64,000 bases of DNA from Bradyrhizobium sp. CB2312 (GTDB lineage Bacteria; Pseudomonadota; Alphaproteobacteria; Rhizobiales; Xanthobacteraceae), in contig NZ_CP121668.1 in NCBI RefSeq assembly GCF_029714425.1, forward strand, positions 2,749,501 to 2,813,500. Reading direction: 5' to 3'. Position numbers and translations under genes: made by a program. Positions 25,165 through 49,032 of the stretch are shown one piece after another. The notes below the pieces were generated by a model. That model saw only the letters and a program-made list of their open reading frames with translations, was not told where the DNA came from and ran no database searches. Position 1 is the stretch's first letter. Every line of letters begins with the position of its first letter.

Positions 25165-28100
25165 GTGGCGGTGAAGACGAAGGGTAAACTCACGAGCAAA
25201 TCGTCGGACGGCACGACAGCCAACTTCCGTCCCCTGAGCGCGGACGATCTCGATGGCATCGTTGGCGGAAATATCACGCCGCCTCCCGGTCAATTCAATT
25301 CGATTGCGGGCTTCGATACATCCCACCTCAATCTCGATGCCAACTCGATGCTCGCCGGCGTCTCTTCTCAGGAGATCGCGCAGGCCGTCGTCAATCACCA
25401 GACCACCGAAACGCAGGCGATGCATTTGATCGAGGCGGTTGCGGCCTACGATCAGACTCACGTCACTCAGGGGCTTGCTGCCTTTGCCGGCGCGATCACG
25501 CAGATTTCGGGCCACAGCAATGATGGCTATGTGGTCGGCGCCGAGATCGGCCACCAGATCGCCGCGGGGCAGGTGAGTGCCACGCAGGCGATATCGGACA
25601 TCGCCGGATCAGTTACTGCGGGGCAGTCGACCGGCCATGTGGCGGTCACCATGCTCGCGGGCATGAGCGGACCGGTTTCCGCGAGCGTTCAGGCCGCGGC
25701 TGGAACGGAAATCGCGGCGCTGGTGACCGCGGGTAGCCTCACCGCAACACAGGCGGTAACCGACATCGTCAACGCAAATGGTGCGGCCGGTGCGCTGACC
25801 CTCGATCAAGTTATCAATGTCCTGAACGATGCAGCCGGCACGCCAGCCATGCACGCCGCGGTGGCGAGCGAGTACAACAGCCTGATGGCGAGCGGTCTGA
25901 CCACGGGCAACCACATTACCGCCGATATCGGTGCCGCAGCGGCGCAGTCCTATTCTGGGATCAGCCACGATACGACCGCCGACATGAACATGATCATGGT
26001 CGCGAAAACCCTGACCATGGATGCGGTGATCGCTGGCGATTATGGCGCTCTGGCGGGTTTCCAGCCGTTGTTGGCCACGATGCAGAACGCCGTCGCCAAC
26101 GGCAACGAGTCCGTTCTCGACGATGCGGTGGCCAATAGCGTGCTGTCGCTGGTGAATGCCGGCGACCTCACGCTGACGACGGCCGTTGCCGATCTGGTGC
26201 AACAGATCAACAGCCACGTCATCAGCGGCAGTCAAGGTTTCGCGCTGCTGAATTCGCTGGTGAACCTCGCGCCGAACTACTCCAATCTCGCGAACAACGT
26301 CGGTAGTCCGCTCTCGGTCGATGCCGTACTCAACCAATTGGCGCCGGCGAGCGCGCAGACGGGGAGTCTTGCCGAGGTCGTCGCCGAAGTGAATTCCGGT
26401 CGATTGGCCGTGGGGCAGGCCATCGCCGCATTTGGCGGCCTTGCCGCCGGCTCCACGGTCGCGCAGATCATGGCAGGTGCCGACATCGCCGGATTCATCC
26501 AGTCCGGCTATATCACCACCAATGCGGCCATTGCTGACATCGTCAGCTCCAACTGGTCCACCACGGAGACGTTCAATTTCCTGCTCGGCATGGCGAGCAG
26601 CGGCAACACCGCGATCGCGGGCGCCGCGATTGCAGAAATGCCGAGCGTAAGCTCGCCGTCGCAGGCCGTCGCCGCCATCAATTCCGCCATTGGCCTGACC
26701 GCGATCACGCCGACGCAGGCGCTTGGTGTCCTGGTCGATCTCGCCGGTTCGACCGGTATGCAAGCGGCCGTCGCCGGTGAAATCGATTCCCTGATCTCGA
26801 ACCACCAGCTGACCACGTCTCAGGTCATGACCGCCATCGGCAGCGCGGTGACCTCATCGATTCTTACCGCGACGGAAGCCCTGACCTTGCTGGCGGACAT
26901 CGCGGCGCCGGCTTCGACGGCCGTGCAGACCGCCGTCACCGCGGAAATTGCGTCCTTTGTCACCGCCGGCAATCTGACCGCCGATCAGGTGGTCACGGCG
27001 CTGGCCGGTCTTGTTGGGGGCGGCGGGGCTGCGATGCGGTCATTCGTTGCCACGGAGATCAGCGCGCTTGTCGCGGCGAACCAGATCACGACGGTGCAAG
27101 CATTCGCCGACGTCGCGGCCGCAGGTGCTTCACATGTTCTGAACGCCGGTCAGACCATTGCCTTGCTGGCGTCTTTGGCTTCCAACTCAACGCCTCTGCA
27201 ATTCACCCTGGGGTCCGACATCGCCGCGATGATCGGAGCGGGCGCGATCACGGCAAGTGCGGCGGTGACCGACATCGCCGGCCTCAACCTGTCGGCGTCG
27301 GAGGCATTCAACATACTGCTTGGCCTTGCAACCAACGGCGACACAACGACCGTAAGTGCCGCCACCGCGGGAATGGCGAGCCTGCTGTCGCCAACGCAGC
27401 TGGTCAGCGATATCGACTCCGCCATTGCCACTTTCACGATTACCACTTCGCAGGGCGTGGGCCTGCTGATCCGCCTCGCCAGCAGTGCGAACATGATATC
27501 GGCGGTCGCCGGCGAAATCGATGCACTGATCGCAAGCAATCAGGTCTCGACCGGCACGGCAATGGCGAGCATCGGCAGCGCCGTGACGTCGTCCGTCCTC
27601 ACGGCGGCGCAGGCGGTGACCTTGCTGGCCTATGTGGCGGCGCCGGCGTCGACGCCCGTGCAAACCGCCGTGACGGCGGAGATCGCCGCGCTGGTGACGG
27701 GCACGACCGTCACGGCGAATCAGGCGGTCAACGCGCTGACGGCGCTCTTCCCCGGCGGCACCACGGCGATGAAGGCGTTCGTGGTCGCGGAGATCAACGC
27801 GCTCGTGGGCGCGAACCAGATCACGGCCGTTCAGGCCGTCAGCGACATCGCGGCCGCCGTGACCGCGCATGTCCTGACCGCCGACCAGGCCGTCTCCTTG
27901 CTGAACATGCTGTCCAGCGCCGGATCGACCGCCATGCAGGCCGCGGCCGGTGCCGAGATCGCGGCGCTGATCGGCTCGGCCTCGATTTCCACCACCAATG
28001 CGGTCGCCGCCATCACACACTCGATCAACATGAGCAGTGTCGCGTCGATCGAACTCGCGATCGTGCAGCTGATGAACGTCGCGGCGAGCGGCAATGCGTC

Positions 28101-31100
28101 GGTGCGAGCGGAGATCAACGCCGACATCGCCGGGTTGATTTCGGCGACCTTCCCGGCCGATACCGCGGTGACCTTCCTCGCTAGCCTCGCTGCGAGCAAC
28201 AACGCCGCGCTCGACAATGCGGTCGCCGGCGCGATTCTGTCTTTGGTCGGAGGCGGCGCGTTGTCGATCACCTCCGCGATCGCTGACGTGACGCAGGCGG
28301 TCAGCACCCAGGCCATCAGCGCCGACCAGGCCGTGGCGCTGTTCGCGTCGATGCTTGGCGCCGTCGGGAGCAACGCCACCAATCAGGCCGCGATCATCAC
28401 GGCGCTCGGACAACTGGTCTCGGGTTCGTTCACCCTGTCGGCGGTCATGGCGGACATCGTCACGGCCGTGGGTGGTGGTCAGTTGACCGCGGCGCAGGCC
28501 ATCTCGGCGTTTATCAGCCTGATTGCCGGCGGGCCCATCAACGCGCAGGTCGCCGCCGGCACCGAGATTGCCGCGCTGATCCAGACCGGCGCGATCACCG
28601 CCAGCGCTGCAATTACGGCGATCGGTGGCCTCGCCTCGGCCGAAACCTTCAACATCCTGATCGGCATGGCGGTCAGCGGCAATGCCGCGACCACGAGTGC
28701 GGCTGTCGCGGACATCAGCACGCTGGTGTCGCCGGGGCAGGCGCGCCTCGACATCATCGCGGTGCTGAACGCGTCCGCCATCACGGCGCCGCAGGCGCTG
28801 CCGATTCTCGTAGACCTCTCCGTCATCCCGTCGTCACCCGGCGACGGGTTTTCCTGGCAAACGATGATGTCCCAGGAAATCTCGACATTGCTGAGCGCTA
28901 GCCAGGTCTCGGCGACGCAGATCACCGCTGCGGTCGACGGCGCCGTTAGGGCCTCAGCTATCACCGCAGCCGCGGCCGTGAACCTGCTGACCAATCTCGG
29001 CTCGTTGGGGTCGACGAGCACGCAGACCGCGATGTCGGCAGAGATCGTCGCGCTGGTCACCGGGGGCAAGATCACGGCCGTGCGGGCGATCACGGGGCTG
29101 ACCAGCGTCTTCACCGGGTCTGGTGGCAGCGAAGGCGGCAGTGTGGCGTCGTTCACGACGAACTTCGTGTCGCATACCATCGGCGCGCTGGTTGCGGCCG
29201 GGCAGGTCTCCAACACGGCCGCGATCAACGACATCGTCGGGCTGATCTCGTCGAGATTCACGCCGGCGACGGCGGTGGTCGTGCTGGCCGGATTTGCGTC
29301 GAACAACAGCCTGACGCTCGATAATGCGGTGGCAGCTGCCATCGTGTCCTTGCTGAACGCCCAGACATTCAGCATGACTCAGGCCGCCCGTGGCGTCTCC
29401 ACCGCGGTGAGCAACGGCGCGATTACCGCCGACCAAAGCATCACCTTGCTGGCGGCGATGCTCGGCATCACCGGCAACGTCAATCCGAATTCGCCGCTCG
29501 GCCCGACCGGAATCTGTCAGGCGCTCGCGGCGCTGGTTCCCTCGCAGATCACCGCGACGGCGGCCGTGGCGGACATCGTCACGGCGGTCGGCAACGGCCA
29601 GCTGACGGCGGTGGAAGCGATCAACGCGTTCGCCTATGTGGCGAGCTCCATCACGGCGCAATTCGCCGCGGGCCAGGACATCGCCGCGATGATCCAGTCC
29701 GGGGCCATCACCGCCAGCGCCGCCATTGCGCAGGTCGGCGGCCTCGCCCCGGGCACCATCAGTAGCAACGAAGCATTCTATATCCTCGCCGGCATCGCGC
29801 TCAATGGCAGCAGCGCGACCGCAAGCGCCGCCGCCGTCGTCATGGCTGGCCTCGGCGTGCCGGGGCAGGCGACCCAATACATTACCACGGCCGTCAACAG
29901 CGCGGCGATCACGGTCCCGCAGGCGGTCAGCATCCTGCTCGAGCTCGCAACCGTCACCGGCATGCAAGCGGCGGTCGGCGCCGAACTCGGCACATTCATC
30001 TCGAACAACCAGATCACCACGGCGGTGGTGATGACCGATATCGGCAACGCGGTGGCGTCGTCGATTCTGACAGCGACGCAAGCCGTGAACGTGCTGGCTG
30101 ATCTCGCGGCGCCGGCCTCATTGGCGGTGCAAAACGCTGCCGCAGCGGAAATCACCGCGCTGGTGAGCGGCGGTTACATCACCGGCAATCAGGCGGCCAC
30201 GGCGCTGATCGGTCTCCTCACCGGCGGCACAGCGGCGATGCAGGTCTTCGCGCTCACCGCCATCAATGCGCTTATCGCCGCGAACCAGGTCGCCACCACA
30301 CAGGTGGTGGCCGACGTCGTCGCCGCGGGCGCCGCCAATGCGCTGACCACGGACCAGACGATCTCGTTGCTGGCGTATCTGGCCGAGTCTGGGTCCGCAA
30401 CGGTGCTGGCCACTGTCGGCGCCGATATCGCCGCGATGGTCACGGCCGGCACCGTGACCGCCACCCAGGCGGTCGCGGACATCTTCGGCACCACCGACAC
30501 CATCACGCCGGCCAGCATCCTGCCCGCCATCCCGGTGATGATGTTCTCGGCCGCAAGCGGCAATGCGAGCTTGCAGAGTGCTGTCATTGCACAATTGTCG
30601 TCGCTGGTCGCGCCGATCACCCAACCCCAGATGGCGACAGCGCTCGGAGCGCTCGCCGCCTACAACAACCCGGCGCTCAATGCGCTTGTCGCCAACACCA
30701 TCTGGTCCATGGTCAGTGGCGGCGAGTTCGTGTCGTTCAATGTCGCGCTGAGCGCTGCCGTCAACAACAACGCCGCGCTCAACGTCACGCAGCAGGCGGC
30801 CCTGTTGCTGGTGCTGGCGGCCGACGTACCCAGCGGCGCGAACAGCACCGTCTACCTCAACACCATTGGCAGCGTCTTCGCCACTCTGACAGCCGCCCAC
30901 GGGCTCCCGCTCACCCAGGTGACAGCCGATATCACTGCCGCGGTCAATTCCCATCAATTGACCGGCGCTCAGGCGGTTCAGCTATTGGTCGGTGCCGGAT
31001 CCATCAGCATCGGCGCCCAGATCTTGGTCGGCGGCCAGATCGACGCGCTGATCCAGGCCGGCAGTGTCAGCGCGTCCGATGCCGCCGCGCTCGTCGCCGC

Positions 31101-34100
31101 GGTCGGCGCTGCGTCCGGCGCTGCCAATGCGTCGTTCGGCGTGCTGATCGGCATGCTGGTCAACGGCAACAGCGCGAACATCGGCGTAGTTGCGCAGGAA
31201 ATGCTGAGCCTCACTCAGATCCAATTCCCCGCCTCGGCCTTCAACGATATCAACACCGCGATCTACGCCGGCGCCATCACGGCGGATCAGGGCCTTGCGG
31301 TGCTGGCGGCGTTCGCCGCTGCCGGCAACGCCTCGACCCAGAGTTCAGTCGGTGCGGAGATTGCCGCGCTGATCGGCAACAACACCATCACGTTCACCGG
31401 CGCGATCGCCGACATCAACGCGGCCGTCGCGTCGACGGTGCTGAGTGGCGCCCAGGCGGCCAACATCCTGCTCGGTCTCGCGAGCCAGAGCAGCGTAACG
31501 ACGCAAGTCGCCATCGGCGCCGAATTCGCCGCGCTGGTCTCGTCGGGCGCTCTGACCGCAAATGCGGCGACGGCCGAAATCGCGGCCGCGGTTCCGTCGA
31601 TCGTCACGGCCAACCAGTCCTTCAACATCCAGATCGGGATGGCGTCGAGTGGCGACCCGGCGCTGCAGACGACCCTGACGCCCGCGCAGGTCATGACCGA
31701 CATCAACGGCGCGCTGGGCGCGTCGTCGATCACGGTCACTCAGGCGCTCGCCTTGCTGGCGCAGCTCGCGCGCGGCGGCAGCAGCGCCATGCAGTCGGCG
31801 GTGGCGGGCGAGATCAATCTGCTGGTCGGCAACGCGACCATCACGGCGGCGACAGCCGATCAGGCGTTCGCCGTGCTGGCGCAGCTCGCACACGTGGGCA
31901 ACAGCAGCGTCCAATCGGCCGTGATCAGCGACATCAATCTGATGATCGCGGATTCGGTCATCACCACGTCGCAGGCGATGACTGACATCGCGACGGCGGT
32001 GCACGGCGCGTCGCTGACCGGCGATCAGGCGGTGGCGCTGCTGGTGGGCATCGCCGCGCAAAGCTCGCTCAGCGTGCAATTCGCAGCCGGCGGATCGATC
32101 GTCGCGCTGATCGCGGCCGGCGCGCTTGCCGCCACCAGTGCAGCGACCGACATCGGCAATGCGGTCGCCGCATCGAGCCTCACGTCCGACCAGGCGGTCG
32201 CGATCCTGCTCGGCATGGCGATCGGCACCAATGCGGCCGCGGCCTCGGCGGCGGCGCACGAGCTGGAAATCCTCGTCACGCCCGCGCAGCTCATCACCGA
32301 CCTCAACAACGCGGTGACGGCGTCCCAGCTCACCGCGACCCAGGCCTTGAGCGTGCTGGCCACGCTGGCGGCGACCGGGCCGACCGCGATGCAGACCGCG
32401 GCCATTAGCGAGATAAACACCCTGATCGGCGGGCTCACCGTCACGCAGGCGATGACCGAATTGCTCGCCATCGCCGCCAACGGCCCGATCGTGCAGGGCG
32501 CGGTGGCGAACGAAATCAACACGCTGATTTCAGGCAACCTCCTCACCGCCGCGCAGGCGGCCGCCGATATCGGCGCCGCGGTGCCGTCGGTGCTGACGGC
32601 GGACCAGGCCGTCACGCTGCTGATCAATCTCGCCACCTCGGCGCCGACCGCCGTGCAGACCGCCGTCAGCGCGGAAATCTCCACGCTGATCAGCGGCGGC
32701 CATATCACCGCCGACCGGGCGGTCGTCGACTTGGTGGGCGTTGCGGCGACGGGCTCTGCGGCATTGCAGGCGGCTGCCGTCGCCGAAATCAACGCGATGA
32801 TCGCGGCCGGCCAGATCACAGCGACGCGGGCAATCAGCGATTTCGGTGCTGCCGTCAGCGCAGGCGGTCTCACTGCGGACCAGGCGATCACGCTGATTGC
32901 ATATCTGGTGGCGCCGGCGTCCGAAGCGATGCTGCAGCAGGCTGGCGCCGTCATTGCGGCTTTCGTCAACAGCGGTCTCACCACCGCCGCGCAAGCCGTC
33001 AGCGACGTTACGAGTACGATGTCGCAGGGGGTGACTGCCGCTCAAGCCGTCGCGGTGCTGATCAATGCCGCTGCAGGCGGCAATGCAGGCCTGTACAGCG
33101 CGGCTCTCGCCGAAATCGGCACTCTCGCGAGGCAGCCAGACGATGCGGTGTGGGATCTGCTCCCGCAGATCGCTTTCCTTCACCAGGCTGGCCTCGGTCA
33201 GACCCAGCTGACGCAAGCGCTTGACCAGATCGCGCAGCAGATCGGTCAACTCATCAGCGTCAACAACCCGAGCGTGTCCGCGGCGATGGCCTATGCCGAT
33301 CTGCATTTGGCAATCAACGCCGGCGTCATTTCCGTCGGCGACTACTTCGCGATGGCGGCTTATCTTGATGCCAATTACGGCAGCGTCTGGGATCCCGTGC
33401 TGACGGCGGGAATCGCAACGCCGACCCAGGGCGCTGATGCCGTCGCAACGCTTGCCTGGCTACTGCCCAGCGCCAACAGCGCTGTGGTGACGGCAATCAC
33501 CAATGCCGTTCTTCTGATCGTCAATAATCATCAGGTCACCTTCCAGAGCGCGGTCGCCAACATCGTTTCGCATCCGTCGGATCAGGCCGTCGTGGCTCTG
33601 ACGGCGATGGCGGCGGGTGGCCAGTTCGGGCCGACGGCATTTGGTCAACCGGCCACCATCGGTGGCGTCACCACCAGCGGAATCTGGTCGATTATCCAGA
33701 GCGGCCACGTTTCCGCGGCTAGTGCCATGTCGGATGTTGTCACCAGCATGGTGGCCGGGCTGATCTCGGCAGATCAAGCCGCCTATGTCATGATCTACGT
33801 GGCAAAGCAGGCCGATGCCTCGACGCAGGTGGCCGTCGGCGCCGGATTGGCCGCGCTGATCGGACAGGCATCGCAGGTTCTGTCCGACCTGGAGAACGGC
33901 ACCGTCCAGACGTTTGCGGAACTGACGCCCGACCAGATTGTCGCGGTGTTCTCAGGCGCGATCAGCGCGCCGGGCACCAGCGCAACCGTTCAGGCTTCGC
34001 TGGCGACCGAGATGGCAGACTTGACTCCCTTCACGTTGAGCGGGCAGCGAGTCGTGACCGACATCGACAATCTCGTCGCCGGCGGCGCATTGACGGCGGC

Positions 34101-37100
34101 GCAGGCCGCGATCGTCTTCTATCAGCTCGGCGCCAATATCAACGGTGCGACAAACGGGCAGATTGCGTCGCTGCAGACGGCGCTCAACGGCGCGCTGTCG
34201 TCGCTTGGCCCGGCCGCGGCCGGTGGTATCGCCACACTCATCTCCGAACACATTATCACTGCGGATCAGGGCGTCGTCCTGATGCTGAGCCTTGTCGGCA
34301 ACGGCACCGGCTCAAACGGCCTGGTCGCCGGCGAAATAGCGACCCTGGTGCACAACAACGCCACGACCGCCGCGCAGGTGATGACGGACATCATGGCTGC
34401 CGTCAGCTCCGGCGGCGCCACCGTCGATCAGGCGGTCACGCTGCTGGCGGTCCTGTCGGTCCAGGGTAATGCGGCGCTGCAATCCGCCGCCGATGCCGAG
34501 ATTCTCTCGCTCATCACCGGCAATCAGATCCCGGCCGCGCAGGCGATGACAGATATCGGCAACACCATCGCGGCCGGCACGCTGACCGGCGACCAGGCGG
34601 TGGCGCTGCTGGCGAGCCTTGCCGGAAGCGGCAACGCGGTGGTGCAGGCCGCGATCGGCAGCGAAATCGCAAGCCTCATCGGCGCCGGCAAGCTGACGGC
34701 GAGCCAGGTCAACACCGATCTCGCTGCTGCGATCACCGCCAACGCACTGACCGTCGATCAGGCCGTTGTCGTGGTCGGCAGCGAAGCGCTTGCGGGCAGT
34801 GCTGCGGTGCGCACCGCGGCCATCGGCGAGCTCTCGGCACTGGTCAGCGGCAACCAGATCGCCGCCGCCCAGGTCGGCACCGACATTGGCAGCGCGATCG
34901 GCACCGGCTTCACCGCCGATCAGGCGGTCGCGCTCCTGGCCAGCATCGCGGCTCAGGGCAATGCGGCTCTGCAGGGCGCCGCCGCGACGGAAATTCTCGC
35001 CTTGATCTCCGGCCATCAGGTCACCGCCGCGCAGGCGATGACCGATATCGGCAACGCCATCACCGCCGGCACGCTGACCGGCGACCAGGCCATCGGTGTG
35101 TTCGCCCTGCTGGCGAATTCCGGCACCGCGGCCGAACAGGCCGTCATCGGGGCCGAGCTGGCGACGCTGATCGCCGCCGCCACGATCACCGCCACGCAGG
35201 CCACGGCCGATATCAACACCGCCATCACCACCAACGCGCTGACGGCCGATCATGCGATTGCCGTGCTCGCTAATCTCGCGGCCGCCAGCAGCGCCACGGT
35301 GGCCGGCGTCGCCATGACCGAAATCGCCGCGCTGGTCGGCGCCAACAGGATTTCGGCCGCCGCTGTGGCGACCGACATCGTCGGCACTATCGGTGCGTCT
35401 CTCACGGTTGACCAGGCGGTCGCGCTGCTGGCCGGCGTCGGCGGCCAAAGCGGGGCGGCGCTGCAAGCCGCCGCCATCGGCAGCATTCTCACGCTGGTCC
35501 AGAACAGCCAGATCACCATCGCGCAGGCGCTCACCGACATCGGCGGCACCGTCGCGGCCGGCACCCTCACGGGCGATCAGGTGGTCGGCCTGCTGGCGGC
35601 TCTCGCCAATGCCGGCAGCGCGGCGCAACAGCAGGCAGTTGGTGCCGAAATTGCGGCGCTGATCGCGGCGAACCGCATCACCGCCTCGCGGGCGATGACC
35701 GATCTCGACACTGCGATCGGGACGGGTGCGCTCACTGCCGATCGCGGCGTCACCGTGCTGGCCGGCGTCTGGCTTGCCGGCGGCACCGGCGTGCCCGCCA
35801 CCGCGGTCAGCGAAATCCTGGCGCTGGTCACCGAGAGCAGGCTCAGCGCCGCTCAGGCTGCGACCGATATCGGCGGCATGGTGGGCGGCGTGCTCACCGC
35901 CAATCAGGACGTGACGCTGCTGGCGAGCCTGTGGCTGCAGGGCGGCACGACGGTTCGGGGCGCCGTCGCCCAGGAGCTGGTCACGCTCATCACCAACGGC
36001 AACGTCGCGGCCGCGCAGTTCGGCGCTGCGATCACGGCGGGCGCGCTGACGGCGGATCAGGTTATCGCCCTGATGGCCGTGGTCGCCAGCGACGGCACCA
36101 CGCAGATTCAGACCGCCATTGGCGCCGGCATTGCGGCGCTGATCGCCGGCAACCAGATTACCGTCACGGCGACGATCAGCGACATCAACACAGCCATCAC
36201 CAACGGTGTGCTCACGCCGGACCAGGGCGTCGCGGTCTTGTCCGGCATGTCGGCGAACGGCAGCACGGCAGTGCAGACCGCGGTCGCCGACGAGATCAAG
36301 GTCCTGACGGGTCCCGTCATTTCGGCCAGCCAGGCGATGGCCGACATCGCCAATGCGGTCGGCAACGGCATTTCGATCGACCAGGCCATCGCGATGCTGG
36401 CGGTGCTGTGGACCGAGAACGACGCAACGCTGCAAGGCGCCGTCGTCAGCGAAATTCTCGCACTGATTTCCGGCGGCCAGGTCACGGCCACGCAGGCGAT
36501 GACCGATATCGGCAACACGCTCGCTGCCGGCACGCTGACCAACGCCCAGGTCACGGCGCTGTTCAGCGCGCTGTCGAGCGCGGGATCGTCGACCGTGCAG
36601 ACCGCGGTGGCCACCGAGATCGCGAACCTGCAGGGCGTCGCCGGCATCGATGCGCAGGTCACCAGTCACGGCATCACCGCTGCAGCCGCTATTCCGGCGC
36701 TCCTGAACCTGCTCGCCGGCGATCCGTCGCAGCAGTCGGCGATCACGACCGAACTTCTCAAGCTCGCCGGAGAGACGCCCAGCGTTATTCCGTCGATCGC
36801 GTCGGACATCGGCGCGGCGATCGGACAGAATTTCAGCGCCGATCAGGCAGTCAACCTGCTCATCAGCGTCGGCGCGCAGGGCAACGCGGCGCTGCAAGCC
36901 AGCTGCGGCGCGGAGATCGCGTCGCTGATCACGGGCAACCAGGCCAGCATCGCTCAAGTGATGACGGATGTGCTGACCGCGGTCGATTCGCAGTGGGCCG
37001 CGGGTCTCGACCCGTTGGCGCGCACGGGAGCCGACATTCGGACCATATCGGCGGATCAGGCGATTGCGCTGTTGACCGTGATCTCGTCGCATTCGGGAGC

Positions 37101-40100
37101 CGCCGTCCAGGTCGCGGCCGGCGACACGATCTTCGTGTTCACGCAGTTGAATTGGATTTCGGCCACGCAGGCGGTCGGCGACATCACCGCCGCGGTCACG
37201 TCGGGTACGCTCGGCGCCGGACCTGCGGTGGTCATGCTGGCCGCGGGCGCCGAATTCGCCGCCAATATCCTGCAATCGGGCTACTATACGATCTTCAGCA
37301 GTAGTATCCCGGCGAACTACGTTGCTCCGACCCAGTCGGTTTTCCTGGGCGGAATCACCACGCTGATTGCCAACAATGCGTTGAGTGCGGCTGCCGCCAT
37401 GGCGGATGTCGCAATCATCGCGGGCGTCCCAACGCTCGGCTTTGTCGATCAGGCGACCCAGTACTGGATTTATCGCGGCTTCACGACCACCCAGTATCAA
37501 GGGCCTGGTTATCTTTACACCTACACCGTCGATAACGTCGGGGTGAATACCACCACCGCGCCCGCCAGCGCCAACCACGTGTTGTCGCTGCTGGTCGGCC
37601 TGGCGGAAATCGGCACAACGGCCGTGCAGTCCGCGGCCGGCACCGAAATCTCCACACTGATCGGGCAAAATCAGATCACCGCGACGCAGGCGGCGACTGC
37701 CATCGGCGGCGCGATTGGCAACGGGATGACCGCCGACCAGGTCATGGCGATGCTGGCGGGTATCGCCGCCACCGGCGGTTCAACCGCGACCGCGGTCGGT
37801 AACGAAATTCTCGCGCTGGTGACCGCCGGCAAGATCACCACCACGCAGGCAATGACCGACATCGACCACGCCGTTGCCAATTCGGCCATGCCGGCCGGCG
37901 CCGGACTCGCGGTGCTGAATGCCGTCGCGGCCGGCGGCAATGCCAGCGAGCAGATCGCCGTAATCGGCGAGGTTGGTGCATTGCTCGTCGAAAGCAAGAT
38001 CACGTTCTCGCAGGCGCTTTCGATGTTGGCGACCGTCGCGGGCGAAGGCTCGACCGCCGTGCAGTCGGCGGCCGTCAGCGAGATCGTAACGCTGATATCG
38101 GGCCACCAGCTCACCGTGGCGCAGGCTGTCAACGGCATCGGCAACGCCGCCGGGGCCAGCCTCAGCGGCACCCAGGCGGTGAACTTGCTGATGTCGCTTG
38201 CGGTGCAGGACACTGCGGCCCAGAGCGCAGTCACGGGGGAATTCCTCGTCCTGGTCAACGCCAACCAGACCACGCCCGGCGAGGTGGCGAACACGATCGT
38301 CAATTCGGTTCTCGCGGGAACGATCGTGCCGACACAGGCGCTCACGATGCTGATCGGGCTTGCCGAAGGCGGCGATATCGCGCTCGCGCTCGCTGTCGGC
38401 GCTGCGATGAACCGGTGGACCGGCAACAATTCCCTCGCCGCGGTCACGTCGGCCGTCAACACCCATGCCATGAGCGCCAATCAGGCCGTCGCGATGCTCG
38501 TCGCCATGGAGGGGGGCGGCTCGGCGGCGGTCACCAACGGTCTCGTCGCCACCAACGTCATCACGGCTCAACAGGCTGCCACGGCGCTGTTGCTGGTCTG
38601 GACGCAGAACGATCCGTCTCAGCACCTGCAAGCAATCGTGTCCGTAGAGCTGACCGCGCTGATGGCCGGGATCGGCTCGGGTGCCCTGATCTCGCCGGCG
38701 GCGCTGATGGCGGATATCACGGCGGCCGTCACGTCGAATACGCTGTCCAGCTCACAGGCCGTCATCCTGCTCGGCGCGCTGCTGTGGCAAGCGCCTTCTA
38801 GTCTGCCTGCTATCATCACCGAGGTCGGATCGCTGGCCAATCAATTCGGCGCTGCCCAGATCATCTCGCAAATCCAGGCAACGCTGACCTCGAATCAGGC
38901 TCTGGCCGTCTTCTCGAATCTCGAAACGTACCCCTGGCGTTTGAACGCCGACGTGGCGAAGTACATGAGCCAGTTGTTGTGCGGCGTTGCCACCGGCAGC
39001 GCCGCCAACACGATGCTGACCGGCGCAGCGCTCGCCTCGATGATCGTGCAGCAGCAGCTCTCGTTCTACACGTTCAACATCACGCCGTTGGTCACGAGCG
39101 GTGCCTTGACCCAGGCCCAGGGCGTCAATGTGCTCGCGGCGACCATCGCCAACCTCCCGTCATCCGCCATCGAGGCCTCGGGCATCGCCGGGCAGCCGGG
39201 CGTCAACGCGATCAGCAACCTCGCCAACTACATCGTCTCGCTGGCGGGTGTCGCGGCGATCGGCGAGATCGACGCCTTTATCGGCGCGTCGTCGGCGTCG
39301 ATGACCGCCTGTGGTGCGCTCGCCGGTGCGTTCGCCGATCTTCTCACGCGGTTGAACAGCCAGGGTCAGCCCCTCGCCACCGTCGCGCAGATCGTGACGC
39401 AGGTGCATAACGACGTCAGCAGCAACGTGCTCGGGGCCGACCAGGCGATCTGGTTGCTCTCGAGCCTCGCGTCGCACGTGACCAGTCCGCTGATCGGCGC
39501 CGAAATCGCCACGCTGGTGGCCAGCGGCCGCGTCACCGCCGCGCAGGCGATCGGCGATCTCGGTGCCGCCGTCACGGGCAATCTGTTGTCCGCCAGCCAG
39601 GCGATTGCGGTCCTTGGTGGCATTGCGGCGAACGCGCATGGCAACGCCACGCTGCTGACCGGTGTCGCCAACGAAGTCGCGAGCCTCGAAGGCGCCATCA
39701 TCGGCACCACGCAATTCCAGGCGGCCATCACTTATACGGCGGGTGAGTTCGTCGCGCTGGCCAGCGGCCAGAAGACCGCGGCGCAGGTGATCTCGGATCT
39801 TGAAGCCTACACGCCCGCCAGTGTGCCGGCGGATGTGCTGTTGAGCGTCGCGCTGATCGAAAGTCAGGGCGCTGGCCTGACGACGGCTGCCAACGCGCTT
39901 GCGACCGAGATCTACAGCCGCATCAACAGCGATGCCGCCGAGAGCGGCCTCGCCCAGCTGGTCTCGGGAGGCATTGTCTCCCTGGCGACGGCCCAACTGA
40001 TCATCACCGAGGCCTTGACCGCCGCGTGGCCGAATATTCCGACGCCGGTCCTCAACCTGTCGAGCGTGCCGTCGAGCGGTCCCTATTCGGCCAGCGTCAC

Positions 40101-42018: not shown

Positions 42019-42049
42019 GGCAAGCGTCAGTTTGGGATCAGGAGCTCAC

Positions 42050-42439
42050 ATGTCCGATCAAACCGAAGTGCCGGTGTCCGGCAAGGCCGCCGATCCCGCA
42101 GACCCAAAGGGGGCGGAGGCTTTGGGCACGGCGCTGGGCCTCTCCCTCCAGCAACTGGCCGTCGCCAATGACGCACAGCAGATTGCGATCCTGGCGATGA
42201 CCGCGGTCCTGGCGCTGTCGCCGGGGACCGCCGCCATCGAGACCGACAAGCTCGGGGCCGTGCTGGCGATCCTGACCAAAGGCCAGCCCAACGGCGACGC
42301 CTACCGGGCGCGGATCGCCCAGTATGTTGGCCTGATGGTCAATGTCGCCCGCAAGCTGCCTGCGATGGTGGACGAGGCGAAAAAGGCGGCCGCTCAGGCG
42401 CCAGCGGGCGCCACCGAGAGCCCGCGAAAGGATAACTAA
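42050..42439 (+). CDS. 129-aa helical protein of unknown function inside the export cluster
   Basis: The protein starts MSDQTEVPVSGKAADPADPK with AGGAG 7 nt upstream, 31 nt after the giant gene. It has a disordered acidic front, two or three Ala/Leu-rich helices (LGLSLQQLAVANDAQQIAIL, then MTAVLALSPG) and a charged Ala/Lys tail. It has no signal peptide and no double-glycine leader, so it is probably cytosolic. An earlier in-frame start would overlap the giant gene and lacks a ribosome site. By position it could be a chaperone, an export factor or an immunity protein. No family was recognised. Confidence 0.75.
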   Translation: MSDQTEVPVSGKAADPADPKGAEALGTALGLSLQQLAVANDAQQIAILAMTAVLALSPGTAAIETDKLGAVLAILTKGQPNGDAYRARIAQYVGLMVNVARKLPAMVDEAKKAAAQAPAGATESPRKDN

Positions 42440-42569
42440 CGGCGTGGGGTCGGGCAGCCGCCGCGGAATTCACCATCCGCGGCAAAAGGCTGAGGCGCCG
42501 CAAGGCCATTGGTGTAAATATGGCAGGCCGCCCGGTCAGGACGGGCGCGGCCAGGCGTAGCGAACGGGC

Positions 42570-43868
42570 ATGGCGAACGAGGGCATTTTTCGCGAAGCAG
42601 CACTTGAAAGGTTGTCGGCGCCGGAGCGGCTCGACCAGGGGCTCCGTATTGTCGGACGTCCGACCTGGGTCGCGCTGCTGGCGCTGGCGGGTCTCGTCGT
42701 CGGCGGCCTGATCTGGAGCATCGTCCTGACGGTGCCGGTCACGGTGCCGGGCCAGGGCATTTTGCTGTCGCCGGGCGGCCTGCTCGACGTCACCGCCGAC
42801 AATCCGGGGCGCCTGCTGAGCTTCAGCGTGGCGGTCGGCGACAAGATCAAGGCCGGTACGGCGGTGGCCCGGCTCGATCAGCCGGAGATTCGCGAAGACC
42901 TGATCAACGCGGAAGCCGAATACCGCGATGCGGTCGGCGAACGCGACCAGATCGTGAAATTCCAGGAGCGCCGCGGGCCGCCGCTCGCCGCCTCGATCGC
43001 GCAGCGCCGGCAGGGCTACAAGGACGATATCGCGTTTCTTGAAAAGCAGCTTGGCTGGCTCGACGAGATCGCCAAGGGCGACGCCGTGCTGATGGACAAG
43101 CAGATCCTCACACGCAAGAGCGCGCTCGAGACTCGCGTCGAGATCGGCAAGGCGGAGACGCAGCGCGCGCAGGCCCAGGACGGCATTCGCAACCTCGATT
43201 TCGAGGCCACCAAGGCGCAGACCGACGACGAGCGCGAGCGCCTCAATGCCGACCTGAAGGTCGCGGCCGCCGAGCGCAAGATCCGCACGTTGCGCGAGAA
43301 GCTCGACCGCCAGAGCGTGGTGCTGAGCCCGTACGACGGCACTGTCATCGAACTCAAGGTCAATCCGGGCGAAATCGTCGATCGCAACGCCGCTTTGTTC
43401 TCGCTGATTCCCGACAAGGTCGCCGAGGCGCTGCCGAAGGATGTCAGAGATCCGATCGGGCCGCTCTATGCGGTTGTCTATGTGCCGTCGAATGACGGCA
43501 AGAAGGTCCGCCCCGGCATGAACGTGCGCCTGTCGCCCTCGACGGTGCGGCGGGAAGAGTTCGGCTTCATCGAAGGCCGCGTCCGCGCCGTAGCGGAGGT
43601 GCCGGCGACTGCGGAAGGCATGTACCGCACGCTGAAGAACCGGCAGCTCGGACAGTCGCTCGCCAAGGACGGCGCCCCTTACGAAGTCGTGGTGGATCTG
43701 TTCGCCGCCAGGGACACGCCGAGCGGCTATCGCTGGTCGTCGTCGCGCGGCCCCGATCTCAGCATCAATGCCGGCACGACGGTCGGCAGCGACATCGAGA
43801 CCATGTCGTTGCCGCTCCTGAGCCTGTTGATCCCGCCGCTGCGGCAGGTCCTGGGAAGCGGTTCGTGA
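42570..43868 (+). CDS. HlyD-family secretion adaptor, NHLM bacteriocin-export type
   Basis: The 432-residue protein has a cytosolic front FREAALERLSAPERLDQGL that is typical of NHLM-system adaptors. A membrane helix follows at about residues 33-55 (WVALLALAGLVVGGLIWSIV). The periplasmic lipoyl halves (PGGLLDVTADNPGRLLSFSV and SVVLSPYDGTVIELKVNPGE) flank a long charged coiled coil (about residues 110-250). It would bridge the ABC transporters and the periplasm or outer membrane. It ends with the same bases that start the next gene (GTGA overlap). No TolC-like gene is in the cluster. Confidence 0.88.
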   Translation: MANEGIFREAALERLSAPERLDQGLRIVGRPTWVALLALAGLVVGGLIWSIVLTVPVTVPGQGILLSPGGLLDVTADNPGRLLSFSVAVGDKIKAGTAVARLDQPEIREDLINAEAEYRDAVGERDQIVKFQERRGPPLAASIAQRRQGYKDDIAFLEKQLGWLDEIAKGDAVLMDKQILTRKSALETRVEIGKAETQRAQAQDGIRNLDFEATKAQTDDERERLNADLKVAAAERKIRTLREKLDRQSVVLSPYDGTVIELKVNPGEIVDRNAALFSLIPDKVAEALPKDVRDPIGPLYAVVYVPSNDGKKVRPGMNVRLSPSTVRREEFGFIEGRVRAVAEVPATAEGMYRTLKNRQLGQSLAKDGAPYEVVVDLFAARDTPSGYRWSSSRGPDLSINAGTTVGSDIETMSLPLLSLLIPPLRQVLGSGS

Positions 43869-46105
43869 GGGCGTTGCTTGCGCTGAAAACCAAAATCGCC
43901 GAGGCGACGTCGCGCGCGGCGTTGCTGTTTGCCGGCACGTGGCCAACACTGCGGGCACGCATCGGCGACACTTCGGCGCACAGGACACCTACGATCCTTC
44001 AATACGAGGCAGCCGAATGCGGCGTCGCGTGTCTCGCCATCCTGCTCGGTTATTTCGGCCGGTGGGTCCCGATCGAGGAGTTGCGTGAGGTCGCCGGCGT
44101 CAACCGGGACGGGACCAATGCAAAAAATCTGCTGCTGACCGCAGAGCGCTACGGACTCGAGGGTGGCGGCTACACGGTCGGTCCAGACGATCTGACCGAC
44201 GACGTTCTGCCATGCATCGTGTTTTGGGAATTCAATCATTTCGTCGTGGTGGAGCGCCGCACCGGCGAGAAAGTCTGGATCAACGATCCGGCGACCGGTC
44301 CCTGTGTTCTCACGACGCAGGATTTCGATCGGGCGTTCACCGGGGTGATACTCGCCCTGAAGCCGGGTCCCGACTTTGCTCCGGGGGGTGAAGCGCCTGA
44401 TCTGCTGCGCAGCATCCGCCAGACCCTGCCGGGCTTCAAGGCGCCGATCCTGGCCGCCGTGCTCGCCGGCTTCCTGCTGGTGGTGCCGGGCCTGATCATC
44501 CCCGGCCTGCAGCGCGCTTTCGTCGACTACTACATGATCGCCGGATTGTCGCGCTGGCTGTGGTGGCTGGTCGGCGGCATCGCCGCGATCGCGCTGGCGA
44601 AGGGATTGCTGACCTTCCTGCAACAGCGCACGCTGGCGCGGTTCCAGGTCAAGCTCGGCGTCGATACCAGTGGTCGGGTGTTGTGGCACATCCTTCGCTT
44701 GCCGATGGCTTTCTTCGCCCAGCGCAACAGCGGCGAAATCACCAACCGCCTCATGGTCAGCGACCGCCTGACCGGCCTGCTTTCGGGCAATATCGCGGTG
44801 ACGTTCATCGGCCTGCTGTCGATCGTGATCTACGCGCTCGTCATGCTGGCCTACAACGTGCCGCTGGCGCTGGTGGTGATCGCATTCGCGGTTCTCAACC
44901 TGGCGCTGCTGGTTTGGTTGTCGCGCCGGCTGTCGGACGCCAGCCGGCGGATGCTGCAGGATGAAGCCCGCATGCAATCCACCATGATCCACGGCTTCGC
45001 CAATCTTGATACTTACCGGGCGAGCGGCGCCGAAAACCTGTTCTTCCGGCGCTGGGCCGGCGAGCACGCCAAAGTCGTCAGCGCCGAGCAGGCCATGGCG
45101 TTCTGGCAGCGGCTGCTGGCCGGCCTCCCGATCCTGCTCGGCACGATCGCAGGTGCCTGCATCGTCTTCATCGGCGGCGTGGGCGTGATGCAAGGGACCA
45201 TCAGCATCGGCATGCTGGTGGCGTTCCAGGCGCTGATGGCCAATTTCAACGCGCCCGTCACCAGCGTGATGGGACTGACCGCGCAATTGCAGCAGGCGCG
45301 GGGTCATATCGACCGGCTCGGCGATGTCGGCCGGCAGCGCGTCGATCCAATTCTCGAGGCCCCTGATGAATCGGGCGTAATCCCGGCGCTGCATGGCGCC
45401 CTGGATATCCAGGGCCTGACCTTCGGTTACACGACCGTGACGGCGCCGTTCCTGCGCGACATTTCGCTGAAAGTGCCGGCCGGCGGTCGCGTCGCCATCA
45501 CGGGCGCCACCGGCAGCGGAAAGTCCACGCTCGCCCGGCTGATGGTTGGATTGATGACACCGCGCGACGGTGTGATCCGGATCGATGGCATCGATCTCGC
45601 CCGGCTGTCGGCGCCGGTGTTGCGCTCGGCGGTGGCCTATGTGGACCAGACCACCACGCTGTTCGGCGGTACGGTGCGCGAAAACCTGACCATGTGGGAT
45701 CTGACCATCAGCGAGGATCGCGTGGTGGCGGCGGCCCGGGACGCGATGGTGCACGAAATGATCGCGTCGCGTCCGATGGCCTACGAGACCCGCGTCGATG
45801 ACAATGGCCGCAATTTCAGTGCGGGCGAACGTCAGCGCCTTGCCATCGCCCGGGCGCTCGCGGTCGATCCGGTGCTTATCGTGTTCGACGAAGCGATGAG
45901 TTCGCTGGATTCCATCGCCGAACAGGGAATCATCGACAACATCCGCCGCCGTGGCTGCACTTGCATCCTGATCTCGCACCGCATTTCGACCCTGCGAGAT
46001 TGCGACGAAATCATCGTTCTGGACGAGGGCCGCATTGTCGAGCGCGGCCGCCACACCGCCCTGATGGCGGCGCATCGCCATTACCAGAAGCAGGTCGAGG
46101 TATGA
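43865..46105 (+). CDS. peptidase-containing ABC transporter (C39 domain, NHLM exporter subunit 1)
   Basis: This 746-residue transporter would cleave a double-glycine leader and export the rest. The C39 peptidase (about residues 40-165) has all catalytic parts: Gln about 46, Cys about 52 in EAAECGVACLAILLGYFG, His about 125 in FNHFVVVE, and Asp about 141 in INDPATG. Six membrane helices follow (about 190-460). The ATPase has Walker A TGATGSGKST (about 546), signature FSAGERQRLAIARAL (about 651) and Walker B LIVFDEAMSSLD (about 669). FSAGE replaces LSGGQ, and DEAMS replaces DEATS. It is translationally coupled to its neighbours, and the peptidase looks fully active. Confidence 0.93.
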   Translation: MRALLALKTKIAEATSRAALLFAGTWPTLRARIGDTSAHRTPTILQYEAAECGVACLAILLGYFGRWVPIEELREVAGVNRDGTNAKNLLLTAERYGLEGGGYTVGPDDLTDDVLPCIVFWEFNHFVVVERRTGEKVWINDPATGPCVLTTQDFDRAFTGVILALKPGPDFAPGGEAPDLLRSIRQTLPGFKAPILAAVLAGFLLVVPGLIIPGLQRAFVDYYMIAGLSRWLWWLVGGIAAIALAKGLLTFLQQRTLARFQVKLGVDTSGRVLWHILRLPMAFFAQRNSGEITNRLMVSDRLTGLLSGNIAVTFIGLLSIVIYALVMLAYNVPLALVVIAFAVLNLALLVWLSRRLSDASRRMLQDEARMQSTMIHGFANLDTYRASGAENLFFRRWAGEHAKVVSAEQAMAFWQRLLAGLPILLGTIAGACIVFIGGVGVMQGTISIGMLVAFQALMANFNAPVTSVMGLTAQLQQARGHIDRLGDVGRQRVDPILEAPDESGVIPALHGALDIQGLTFGYTTVTAPFLRDISLKVPAGGRVAITGATGSGKSTLARLMVGLMTPRDGVIRIDGIDLARLSAPVLRSAVAYVDQTTTLFGGTVRENLTMWDLTISEDRVVAAARDAMVHEMIASRPMAYETRVDDNGRNFSAGERQRLAIARALAVDPVLIVFDEAMSSLDSIAEQGIIDNIRRRGCTCILISHRISTLRDCDEIIVLDEGRIVERGRHTALMAAHRHYQKQVEV

Positions 46106-49032
46106 TGGCGCCCCGCCCGCCCGTGCTCACCCTGGCGTCGAGTGACGGAATGCTGGCCGCGCCGTTCGCGGCCGCGCCCAGCATCAATCTCGAGCCCGGT
46201 GAGGCTCTGGCGCTCAGCGAAACCCAGCAAGGCCACATCATCGCCGCCGGACGGGTCGAGATCTATCTCGTCGTGAAGAGCGGCGACGAGTTGTCGGGAC
46301 GCATGTTCCTGTGCGAACTCGGCGGCGGCGAGTACATCGCACCGATCGTGGTGGCAGACGATCTATTGGTGACCGCGGTAGCGGTCGAGACCAGCGCGAT
46401 CGCCGCCATCCGCACCGACACGCTGGCGGTCCAGGCCAAAGGCTCCGAGCAGCAACACAACGCGGTGGCCGCATCCATCGACGGGTGGCTTAGTCATCTC
46501 AGCGCCGCCGTGAGCCGTATGGTCGGCCCGGCGCCGCTCGATATCGTCACGTTCGCGCCCGGTGAACAGGCGAAGGCCGCCGGCGAAGCCGCGCTCATGA
46601 CCCGTGGCGGCGTGGTCTGGTTGACGGCATTGGGCGCCGACCTGTCATGCTGTGGCGGCGTGCCGGTCGCCGGCATAAATCGCCGGCAGGTGGCGGCGGT
46701 GGCCGGCGGCATCTGGATCTCGCCGGCGCGGCCCTGCGAGGTTCATGCGGTCGGCACCGCCGATATCCTTCGCCTGTCGGAATGGCAGCGCCTGCTGGAG
46801 TTTACCCACGCCACTTTGTTCTTGCTGGTCCGGCGCGCGCACGACACCCGTCAGGACGCGTTGCGCGAGGCAGTCCAAGGCCGGATGGCGCGTACCACGC
46901 GCACGGTGAATCGCGCCTTCACGCGGTTCGACGCGGTGCTGGGCAAGGTCGCGCCGCAAGCCGCCGCCGAGCCTGTCGGCGACGAGCCGTTCGTCGCGCC
47001 GTTCGTCACCATTGCGAGCAAGCTCGGGCTCGACTTCACCAACCGGCAGCGCGAACAGCTGTCGCGGGCGAGCAATGTCGACGACGCGGCGCGCGCGGTG
47101 CGGTTGCGCAACCGCCAGGTGGTGCTGAGCAGCGACTGGTTGCAGCAGGATCTCGGCCCGCTGATCGGTTTCCTCGATGACGCGCGGCACCCGGTGGCGC
47201 TGATCCCGACCGACGCGAAGCGCTGGGTGATGATCGAGGCGGAGCACGCCAGGCCGACGCCGGTCGACGCCACGCTGGCGGCCCGGCTGGCGCCGCAGGC
47301 GCACATGCTCTATCCGCCGTTCCCGGATCGGCCGATCGGGTTTCGGCAATTCATCGGTTTCGGCTGGCTGCGCAACCGGTGGGATGCGGCGCTCGCTGTC
47401 TCCATGGCGCTGGCCTCCGCGCTGCTCGGCCTCGCGACGCCGATGGCGATGCAACTGGCGTTCGATCGCTTCATTCCGGGCCACCAGACGCTGTCGCTGT
47501 TAACTCTCGGCATGGGCCTCGTGCTGGCCGCGTTCATCGCCGCCGGCTTTCGTTTCGTGTTCGACATCGCAAGCCTGCGGCTCGATGGGCGCGGGGCGGG
47601 CGCCTTGCAGGCCGCCTTCATGGACCGGCTTTTGCGGCTGCCCGACAGCGCGCTGCGCATGAGCCCCGGCAATATCGCCAGTCGCTTCGTCGCGGCGGAT
47701 CAATTGCGGCGCGGCGCCTATTCGCTGATGCTCGGCTCGATTTCGGCGCTGCTCTTTTTCGTCAGCAACATCGGCCTGATGTTCTACTACTCGCCTGCGG
47801 CGGCGGGGGCGGCGATCGGGCTGTTCGCCCTGATCGCCGCGGTTGCGGCGTTCTGCGGCTATCATCAGCTCGATGCGCTGCAGCGCGGGGAGGAGATCCT
47901 CTCCGATATCTACGGCATCGTGTTCCAGCTCGTGCATGGCATCACGACTCTGCGTGCCACCGGATCCGAGCAGCGCGGCTTTGCGCGCTGGGCCATGGAC
48001 TTCGCCGAGCTGCGCTCCCGCATGTACCGGGCGCGGACCTTCGGCACCCTGTTCGAAACCGCGCTTGTGGCCTTCGAGCTGCTGGCGCTGGCGGTCATCC
48101 TGTTGATCCTGTCGCAGCTGTCGCGCGACGAACTCTCGACCGGCGCGTTCGTGTCCTTCATAGCCGCGTATGGCGCCTACATGGGCGCCTCGCTGCAACT
48201 GGCGCGCAGCGTCGTTGCCGCCTGGAATTCGCAACCCTCCTGGGGGCGTGTGGCGCCCTTGCTGCGCGCTGCGCCTGATGTCGCCGGATCGAAGCGCGAT
48301 CCGGGCGTGCTGACCGGGAACATCGATGTCACCAACGTCTATTTCCGTTACGGCCCCGATGCGCCGTTCGCGCTCCAGGGCGTCTCGCTGTCGCTGGCAC
48401 CGGGCGAGCACGTCGCGCTAGTCGGCCCCTCGGGATCCGGCAAGTCGACCCTGATGCGGCTGCTGCTCGGGTTTGAGATGCCGGCGAGCGGCACCGTGCA
48501 ATATGACCGGCAGGATCTGCGCTATCTCGACATCGAAATGGTGCGGCGGCAGATTGGCGGCGTGTTGCAGAACACCGCGCTGTTTCCCGGCACGCTCTAT
48601 GAAAACATCATGGGCACCCACGAGGGCACGCTCGACCAGGCGTGGGAGGCTGCGCGACAGGCCAATATCGACCAGGACATCAACGCCATGCCGATGGGCA
48701 TGCATACGATCGTGACCGAAGCCGCGGCTGCTTTCTCCGGCGGCCAGATCCAGCGTTTAGCGGTCGCCCGCGCACTGGTCGGCAAGCCGCGGATTTTGTT
48801 GCTCGACGAGGCCATGAGCGCGGTCGACAACGTGACGCAGGCCCGCCTAACCGAAAGCCTGCACCGGCTGGCGGTGACACGCCTCGTCATCGCGCATCGT
48901 CTCACCACCGTGAAGAGCGCCGACCGCATCATCGTTCTCGACCGCGGTAAAGTGGTGCAAACCGGCCGTTACGACGAGCTGATGGCGGTCAAGGGCTTGT
49001 TCGCCGATCTGGTCGCGCGGCAGCTTGTTTGA
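46102..49032 (+). CDS. second ABC transporter of the NHLM-type exporter, with long N-terminal domain
   Basis: The 976-residue protein starts at the ATGATG that overlaps the previous stop. Residues 1-400 form a soluble region with a cupin/cyclic-nucleotide-binding-like start (LALSETQQGHIIAAGRVEIY, then LCELGGGEYIAP), as in NHLM export ABC2 proteins. The membrane domain covers about residues 413-700. The ATPase has GPSGSGKST (about 774), FSGGQIQRLAVARAL (about 878), LLLDEAMSAVD (about 898) and IAHRLTT. It has no C39 domain; ABC1 provides it. Together the two probably form a heterodimer. An upstream in-frame ATG at 45961 lies inside ABC1 and is rejected. Confidence 0.9.
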   Translation: MMAPRPPVLTLASSDGMLAAPFAAAPSINLEPGEALALSETQQGHIIAAGRVEIYLVVKSGDELSGRMFLCELGGGEYIAPIVVADDLLVTAVAVETSAIAAIRTDTLAVQAKGSEQQHNAVAASIDGWLSHLSAAVSRMVGPAPLDIVTFAPGEQAKAAGEAALMTRGGVVWLTALGADLSCCGGVPVAGINRRQVAAVAGGIWISPARPCEVHAVGTADILRLSEWQRLLEFTHATLFLLVRRAHDTRQDALREAVQGRMARTTRTVNRAFTRFDAVLGKVAPQAAAEPVGDEPFVAPFVTIASKLGLDFTNRQREQLSRASNVDDAARAVRLRNRQVVLSSDWLQQDLGPLIGFLDDARHPVALIPTDAKRWVMIEAEHARPTPVDATLAARLAPQAHMLYPPFPDRPIGFRQFIGFGWLRNRWDAALAVSMALASALLGLATPMAMQLAFDRFIPGHQTLSLLTLGMGLVLAAFIAAGFRFVFDIASLRLDGRGAGALQAAFMDRLLRLPDSALRMSPGNIASRFVAADQLRRGAYSLMLGSISALLFFVSNIGLMFYYSPAAAGAAIGLFALIAAVAAFCGYHQLDALQRGEEILSDIYGIVFQLVHGITTLRATGSEQRGFARWAMDFAELRSRMYRARTFGTLFETALVAFELLALAVILLILSQLSRDELSTGAFVSFIAAYGAYMGASLQLARSVVAAWNSQPSWGRVAPLLRAAPDVAGSKRDPGVLTGNIDVTNVYFRYGPDAPFALQGVSLSLAPGEHVALVGPSGSGKSTLMRLLLGFEMPASGTVQYDRQDLRYLDIEMVRRQIGGVLQNTALFPGTLYENIMGTHEGTLDQAWEAARQANIDQDINAMPMGMHTIVTEAAAAFSGGQIQRLAVARALVGKPRILLLDEAMSAVDNVTQARLTESLHRLAVTRLVIAHRLTTVKSADRIIVLDRGKVVQTGRYDELMAVKGLFADLVARQLV

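Follow-up and report, generated by a model that had tools for sequence, protein, structure and literature searches.

The five-gene cluster described here encodes an NHLM-type exporter, made up of a C39 peptidase/ABC transporter, an HlyD-type adaptor and a second ABC transporter, and its predicted cargo is the adjacent 550-kDa repeat protein. We consider with good confidence that this giant is probably recognized and clipped at an N-terminal double-glycine leader. The prediction that the pump clips and exports the giant follows from two elements, i.e., the leader-type export tag on the giant and the recurrent pairing of giant and pump. The link between exporter and giant is supported by comparative genomics, whereas secretion itself is predicted from sequence. 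Most likely, the cluster belongs to a clade of NHLM-type exporters that would be adapted to leader-directed export of giant proteins.

All positions below refer to the window, i.e., the whole stretch of 64,000 nucleotides that was analyzed, and all features of the cluster lie on the forward strand. The giant is encoded at 25165..42018 from a GTG start (5617 amino acids). Its first 35 residues make up the leader (25165..25269), with 25171 as an alternative start because several homologs begin two codons later (MKAKGK...). A region of 55-residue repeats covers 26365..38364, these limits being approximate. After a spacing of 31 nt follows the gene of a 129-residue protein (42050..42439) that has six homologs and whose role as a partner or chaperone is a guess. 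The HlyD-type adaptor (42570..43868), the C39 peptidase/ABC exporter, called ABC1 (43865..46105), and the second ABC transporter, ABC2, which lacks a peptidase (46102..49032), complete the cluster, with 4-nt overlaps at both the HlyD/ABC1 and the ABC1/ABC2 junction. For ABC2 the open reading frame begins in the list at a TTG (45961); a likelier start is provided by the ATG at 46102, which overlaps the ABC1 stop and gives 976 amino acids. The initial annotation had described five genes on the same strand in this order, and this was confirmed. Its statement that the cluster contains no TolC-like gene holds as well, as the ten PF02321 matches of the genome fall in five open reading frames elsewhere.

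The assignment of the exporter to the NHLM type, made earlier from the letters of the DNA, was confirmed by the NCBIfam models: HlyD and both ABC proteins exceed the NHLM_micro cut-offs, two of the three narrowly. HlyD scores 301.1 bits against TIGR03794 (NHLM_micro_HlyD; cut-off 156.2), ABC1 854.6 bits against TIGR03796 (NHLM_micro_ABC1; cut-off 853.3, a margin of 1.3 bits) and ABC2 718.5 bits against TIGR03797 (NHLM_micro_ABC2; cut-off 709.4, a margin of 9.1 bits). No NCBIfam match to the NHLP (TIGR03793) or Nif11-type (TIGR03798) precursors was obtained with pieces of the giant, the leader or the 129-residue protein, and the remaining short open reading frames of the window were screened for precursors by the leader motif alone. 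The cluster is classed as an NHLM-type exporter, not as an NHLP precursor system.

The C39 peptidase domain of ABC1 (residues 41–168, at 43985..44368; PF03412, 116.8 bits) aligns to the PCAT peptidase 6mpz with an E-value of 4.8e-39, and its catalytic residues are Cys52, His125 and Asp141 in ABC1 numbering. These Cys, His and Asp residues are found in all five ABC1 rows of the giant-linked clade and in 62, 62 and 61, respectively, of 62 other rows. ABC1 keeps its catalytic residues and thus does not carry a degenerate C39-like domain of the hemolysin type. Near the ABC signature (45827–45844, residues 655–660), residue 655 is Glu in the five giant-clade copies and Gln in 61/62 others, and residue 660 is Ala in these five and Glu in 62/62 others. 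When ABC1 was compared for the FxT/W channel motifs of type I secretion, the motif did not show in the comparison rows. The N-terminal extension of ABC2, about 300 amino acids long, gives a weak cNMP_binding match (E 0.028) that is below the cut-off.

The giant was earlier put at about half a megadalton with a C39-type leader, and this description stands: it has a mass of 549.9 kDa and a leader core, LSADDLDGIVGG, of which the last residue is residue 35. It has a pI of 4.05, 21% Ala, a GRAVY of 0.67, 1.0% Lys plus Arg and five Cys. The sequence has a period of 55 residues, with further autocorrelation peaks at 18 and 37. The claim that it forms a helical solenoid was borne out for residues 3001–3450, the sole segment so modelled, for which AlphaFold2 returned a helical solenoid with three helices per repeat and a pLDDT of 92.7, using an input of eight alignment rows of which two are shifted stretches of the same repeats. 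It did not extend to the C-terminal 737 residues, for which the model (pLDDT 43) was left unused. With regard to a HEAT/ARM-like fold, Foldseek and VIA-align recovered only generic helical solenoids with the repeat model, the repeat profile had zero matches among PDB sequences at E 0.1, and searching five pieces of the giant against Pfam and NCBIfam gave no match above cut-off. Public records name four of the homologous giants (P0012, P0013, P0017 and P0023) 'beta strand repeat-containing protein', and the modelled repeats of the window giant are helical. Compared with the copy in genome G205, the giant has an identity of 86.6% and a dN/dS of 0.37 over 5487 codons, and the giant gene is therefore under selection. 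Two other kinds of exported protein were considered and rejected. An RTX-type cargo does not fit the zero GGxGxD matches in the giant, and a Sec signal does not fit its N-terminus, which on direct reading of the sequence has no hydrophobic core.

No NCBIfam or Pfam model matched the first 60 residues of the window giant. C39 domains read leader positions -12, -7 and -4 (PMC6959990). The giant has L at -12 and -7, I at -4, and then G(-2) and G(-1), so that the hydrophobic positions and the double glycine of a PCAT-type leader are all present in it. Two protein searches, returning 13 and 12 proteins among 957 and 1167 candidates scored, identified at least 17 different homologs of 3134–5644 amino acids, i.e., at least 18 giants with that of the window. 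Among the matches listed, 15 of 18 giants have the leader core near the N-terminus, and it is kept while the giant bodies fall to 25% identity; six of these 15 are near copies from Bradyrhizobium, the window giant included. Three of the 18 lack a leader as annotated among the matches listed. P0016 begins inside the repeats. P0026, which is 76% identical to the leader-bearing P0022, begins past the position of the double glycine, and its missing leader looks like a late start call. P0023, a Bradyrhizobium protein, begins at the segment that comes after the leader in others, and may be a leaderless giant. Leader columns were counted over ten giants, excluding five near copies of the window giant, P0016, P0023 and then P0026, whose annotated sequence has no leader. 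Within these ten, which have pairwise local identities of 25–68%, S-11, L-7, D-6, V-3, G-2 and G-1 are invariant, position -12 is L or I and position -4 is V or I; some near copies of the window giant have Asn at -6. Outside its core the leader is not specially conserved, because residues 1–35 are less conserved between the window and the G205 copy (identity 74.3%, dN/dS 0.49) than the whole giant is.

Relatives of the exporter were collected by HlyD searches at the levels of family (198 genomes, E 1e-20), genus (265 genomes, E 1e-30) and order (397 genomes, E 1e-80), these sets overlapping, and with a four-sequence HlyD profile in 391 family and 385 class genomes (E 1e-75) that overlap with the other sets. 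Close HlyD relatives (48–99% identity) occur, besides the genome of the window (G000), in G205, in B. sacchari (G291), in a Xanthobacteraceae MAG that encodes giant P0019 (G010) and in Methyloraptor flagellatus, which encodes P0017 (G655). The initial annotation had proposed to look in other genomes for the same exporter set beside very long repeat proteins. A leader-bearing giant adjoins the exporter in all five loci, from Bradyrhizobium, the Xanthobacteraceae MAG and Methyloraptor, with the frame of the giant split in the G291 draft. G205, G010 and G655 all keep the gene order giant-HlyD-ABC1-ABC2, as does G291 apart from its split giant frame. In this draft (L097/L098) the giant is divided into 825 amino acids with the leader and then 4784, while the B. 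sacchari record P0011 is one protein of 5616 amino acids; the split is either an assembly error or a real break. Neighbourhoods were read for five of the 18 giants, the remainder being P0013–P0016, P0018 and P0020–P0027, of which ten are leader-bearing among the matches listed. The gene of the 129-residue protein is present in four of the five loci, with a relative of 36% identity at the same place in G010 and no match in the G655 locus.

Some further genes were seen around these loci. An outer-membrane beta-barrel gene (PF13505, at 23993–24799 of the window) is divergent from the giant, and G205 and G291 each have a similar open reading frame at this place. An open reading frame of about 172 amino acids (MRKVLYILSRL...) follows ABC2 in G655 (L092) and G010 (L070), and by reading has the look of a cyclic-nucleotide-binding protein. 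Beyond the exporter of Methyloraptor (L094, 6876–14500) lie, by reading, a 1107-residue Cas9-like open reading frame, further open reading frames and a CRISPR-looking repeat array.

In Bradyrhizobium, some NHLM-like HlyD is found in 70 of 265 genomes at E 1e-30, and the HlyD of the giant-linked clade (98–100% identity) in three. A search with residues 36–500 of the giant (E 1e-8, best six candidates per genome) matched in the same 3/265 genomes; distant giants escape this search, as P0023, from Bradyrhizobium, was not caught. At E 1e-100, HlyD searches recovered no further giant-clade exporter in two genomes of the genus of G010 or in 15 of the family of G655, each set containing only that of G010 or G655 itself. 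Trees were made from 69 hand-chosen rows, i.e., the five giant loci, 41 other loci from the genome searches and 23 of 48 further loci; 63 rows were usable for HlyD and 67 for ABC1, where G1267 and G842 are missing. The five giant-linked exporters fall on one side of a branch with support 100/99 in the HlyD tree, where 0/500 shuffles were as low, and on one side of a branch with support 100 in the ABC1 tree. In Bradyrhizobium, the giant-linked exporters are therefore closer in the trees to their counterparts from other genera than to the ordinary NHLM-like exporters found within the genus.

For contrast, 45 other loci from the same searches were considered, which are NHLM-like by similarity to the window proteins, not by family cut-offs, and have HlyD identities of 28–41%. 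With a short leader open reading frame defined as one below 300 amino acids and a giant as a single open frame of at least 1500, short leaders occur in 31 of the 45 and leader-bearing giants in none. Some of the 45 loci are truncated where a contig or the fetched stretch stops, and chance may account for a few of the short-leader cases. Ten codon-shuffled controls gave short leaders in 1–6 of the 45 loci and giants in none. Applied to the giant-linked clade, the same motif rule finds giants in four of five loci, G291 failing through its split frame, and short leaders in one of five (G291, with five open reading frames). Beside other NHLM-like exporters, three long open reading frames without a leader were set aside by reading: the 3457-residue one of G098b is Gly-rich with a Sec-like start, the 2110-residue one of L050 is polyketide-synthase-like, and the 2831-residue one of G103 lies on the strand opposite to the exporter. 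Among the nearest relatives that are not linked to a giant, G977, G103 and G1084 have leader proteins of 74, 103 and 220 amino acids, respectively, and none was seen in G1267, G057 and G842. These small and medium leader proteins suggest that the giant cargo may have evolved from a smaller leader cargo.

The frequency of short leaders in the 45 loci raises the question whether the exporter serves short leader peptides that are encoded elsewhere or were missed, the giant being a neighbour that is only seemingly linked. In B. sacchari, five short double-glycine-leader open reading frames indeed lie close to the giant, 3–5 kb upstream (L098, about 12.8–14.5 kb, at the end of G291:C12). The same five kinds, however, surround an ordinary NHLM-like exporter of G251 (L099), and two of them flank a second B. 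sacchari exporter on contig C15. They therefore probably belong to a neighbouring short-peptide system, and two NHLM systems may adjoin each other across the contig break in B. sacchari, although no single unbroken contig displays this arrangement. In the stretches of the window, G205, G010 and G655 the motif rule finds no short leader, and the leader motif, sought on the two strands of the window, gives one match, which upholds the initial annotation in calling the giant the sole leader-bearing protein of the cluster. That annotation had also pointed to related clusters with a short leader and without the giant as evidence to the contrary; the relatives with 48–99% HlyD identity are all giant-linked, and such clusters appear among the more distant exporters (28–41%). 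As the leader is on the giant itself and the pair of giant and exporter recurs in three genera, we consider a short-peptide cargo improbable.

Leader-directed export is also to be weighed against the possibility that the giant stays intracellular, where the leader would only dock it to the peptidase or exporter as a scaffold or export regulator. Known PCAT cargo is far smaller, with CtA, the cargo of PCAT1, having 66 residues behind a 24-residue leader (PMC6959990), and the GRAVY of the giant and its C-terminal 737 residues, for which there is no confident model, count on the same side. On the other hand, the leader positions agree with those of cleaved substrates (PMC6959990) and the C39 catalytic residues are present, while the few Cys, the low content of Lys and Arg and the pI fit exported type I cargo, which is described as fairly acidic (PMC8277102). 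A docking role is given a similarly small chance.

Clearly less probable still is export by an ordinary type I system through a C-terminal signal, with the N-terminal leader as a relic. Published giants such as SiiE (595 kDa) do leave by type I systems (PMC8277102), and of four ABC paralogs examined in the genome of the window L002 and L004 lack all three catalytic residues, like the hemolysin-type exporter without a catalytic cysteine (PMC8277102). The other two paralogs are C39 exporters that keep the Cys, the His and the Asp, which weighs against the preferred reading. Yet the leader core persists in the giants despite their diverged bodies, GGxGxD repeats are absent, and the exporter, which has the C39 catalytic residues, is co-inherited with the giant. 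A polyprotein cut into many small products at internal double-glycine sites, to which the regular 55-residue repeats might point, has a negligible probability, since the repeats in the modelled segment make up a single unbroken solenoid and the low number of leader-type sites, one in the window giant, at its N-terminus, and 0–2 in each of 14 giants counted, argues against it.

The preferred reading, leader-directed export of the giant, shares features with several known systems. Giant adhesins of type I secretion, such as SiiE and LapA, likewise combine an ABC exporter and an HlyD-type adaptor with an acidic, Cys-poor giant repeat cargo, but they use an uncleaved C-terminal signal instead of an N-terminal leader and C39 catalytic residues, and SiiE has Ig-type domains, where the window giant has helical repeats without the RTX motif. 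With the PCATs (PCAT1, LahT and ComA) the cluster has in common the C39 Cys/His/Asp residues and the leader positions -12, -7 and -4 with the double glycine. The NHLM three-gene cluster is defined by TIGR03794, TIGR03796 and TIGR03797, with precursors that end in short cores, on average 26 residues for one group (Haft et al., 2010; PMC2887384). Here, the same three exporter families and a double-glycine leader on the linked cargo are found, but in place of a short core about 5580 residues follow the leader, there is no match to the nitrile hydratase or Nif11 leader families, and no modification enzyme is seen among the five genes. The short-peptide NHLM-like systems of Bradyrhizobium (e.g., G251 and G291b) have the same exporter gene set and LxDxELxxVxGG leaders, but their HlyD proteins are 28–38% identical to that of the window, and they carry short leader open reading frames and no giant.

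In the proposed mechanism, the leader would dock on the C39 domain of ABC1, with the hydrophobic residues at -12, -7 and -4 as contacts, and be cut off after Gly35. The new N-terminus would then enter ABC1, and the chain would be threaded from N- to C-terminus across many ATP cycles, possibly during translation, since the leader is the first part to emerge from the ribosome. From ABC1, and perhaps also from ABC2, HlyD would make the connection to a shared outer-membrane channel of the TolC family that is encoded away from the cluster; any role for ABC2 is a guess, as is the idea that the 129-residue protein may hold the chain unfolded. Outside, the exported chain would fold into a long helical solenoid, for which a function as a fibre on the surface, as an adhesin or as a spacer is a guess.

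Type I cargo of Gram-negatives tends to be large and to have a C-terminal signal that is not cleaved off (PMC6959990), and giant cargo of this kind requires threading, while peptide-type transporters are built differently and are thought to be suited to small cargo (PMC8277102). Peptide-type C39 exporters are portrayed as pumps that move small cargo by alternating access (PMC8277102; PMC6959990). A leader-directed giant would fall between these two models. The initial annotation did not recognize the combination as a described system, and no report of a leader-bearing giant was found in the open-licence PMC literature, including passages of PMC2887384, PMC8277102, PMC6959990, PMC3482391 and PMC8939145, a body of work outside which most subscription papers lie. 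We give about even weight to the broader proposal that Alphaproteobacteria have a secretion route dedicated to giant proteins, in which a cleavable N-terminal leader would direct the half-megadalton cargo to a C39 ABC exporter of the peptide class, turned into a processive conveyor that is able to begin export before translation ends, with the signal at the end opposite to that in classical type I secretion through a C-terminal signal. If true, a cleaving C39 exporter with a cargo of 5,600 residues would force the alternating-access and threading models together. It would become directly testable in culturable Bradyrhizobium what length of chain can be threaded by a pump of this kind and whether threading can take place during translation, and the leader would offer a handle to export very large repeat proteins.
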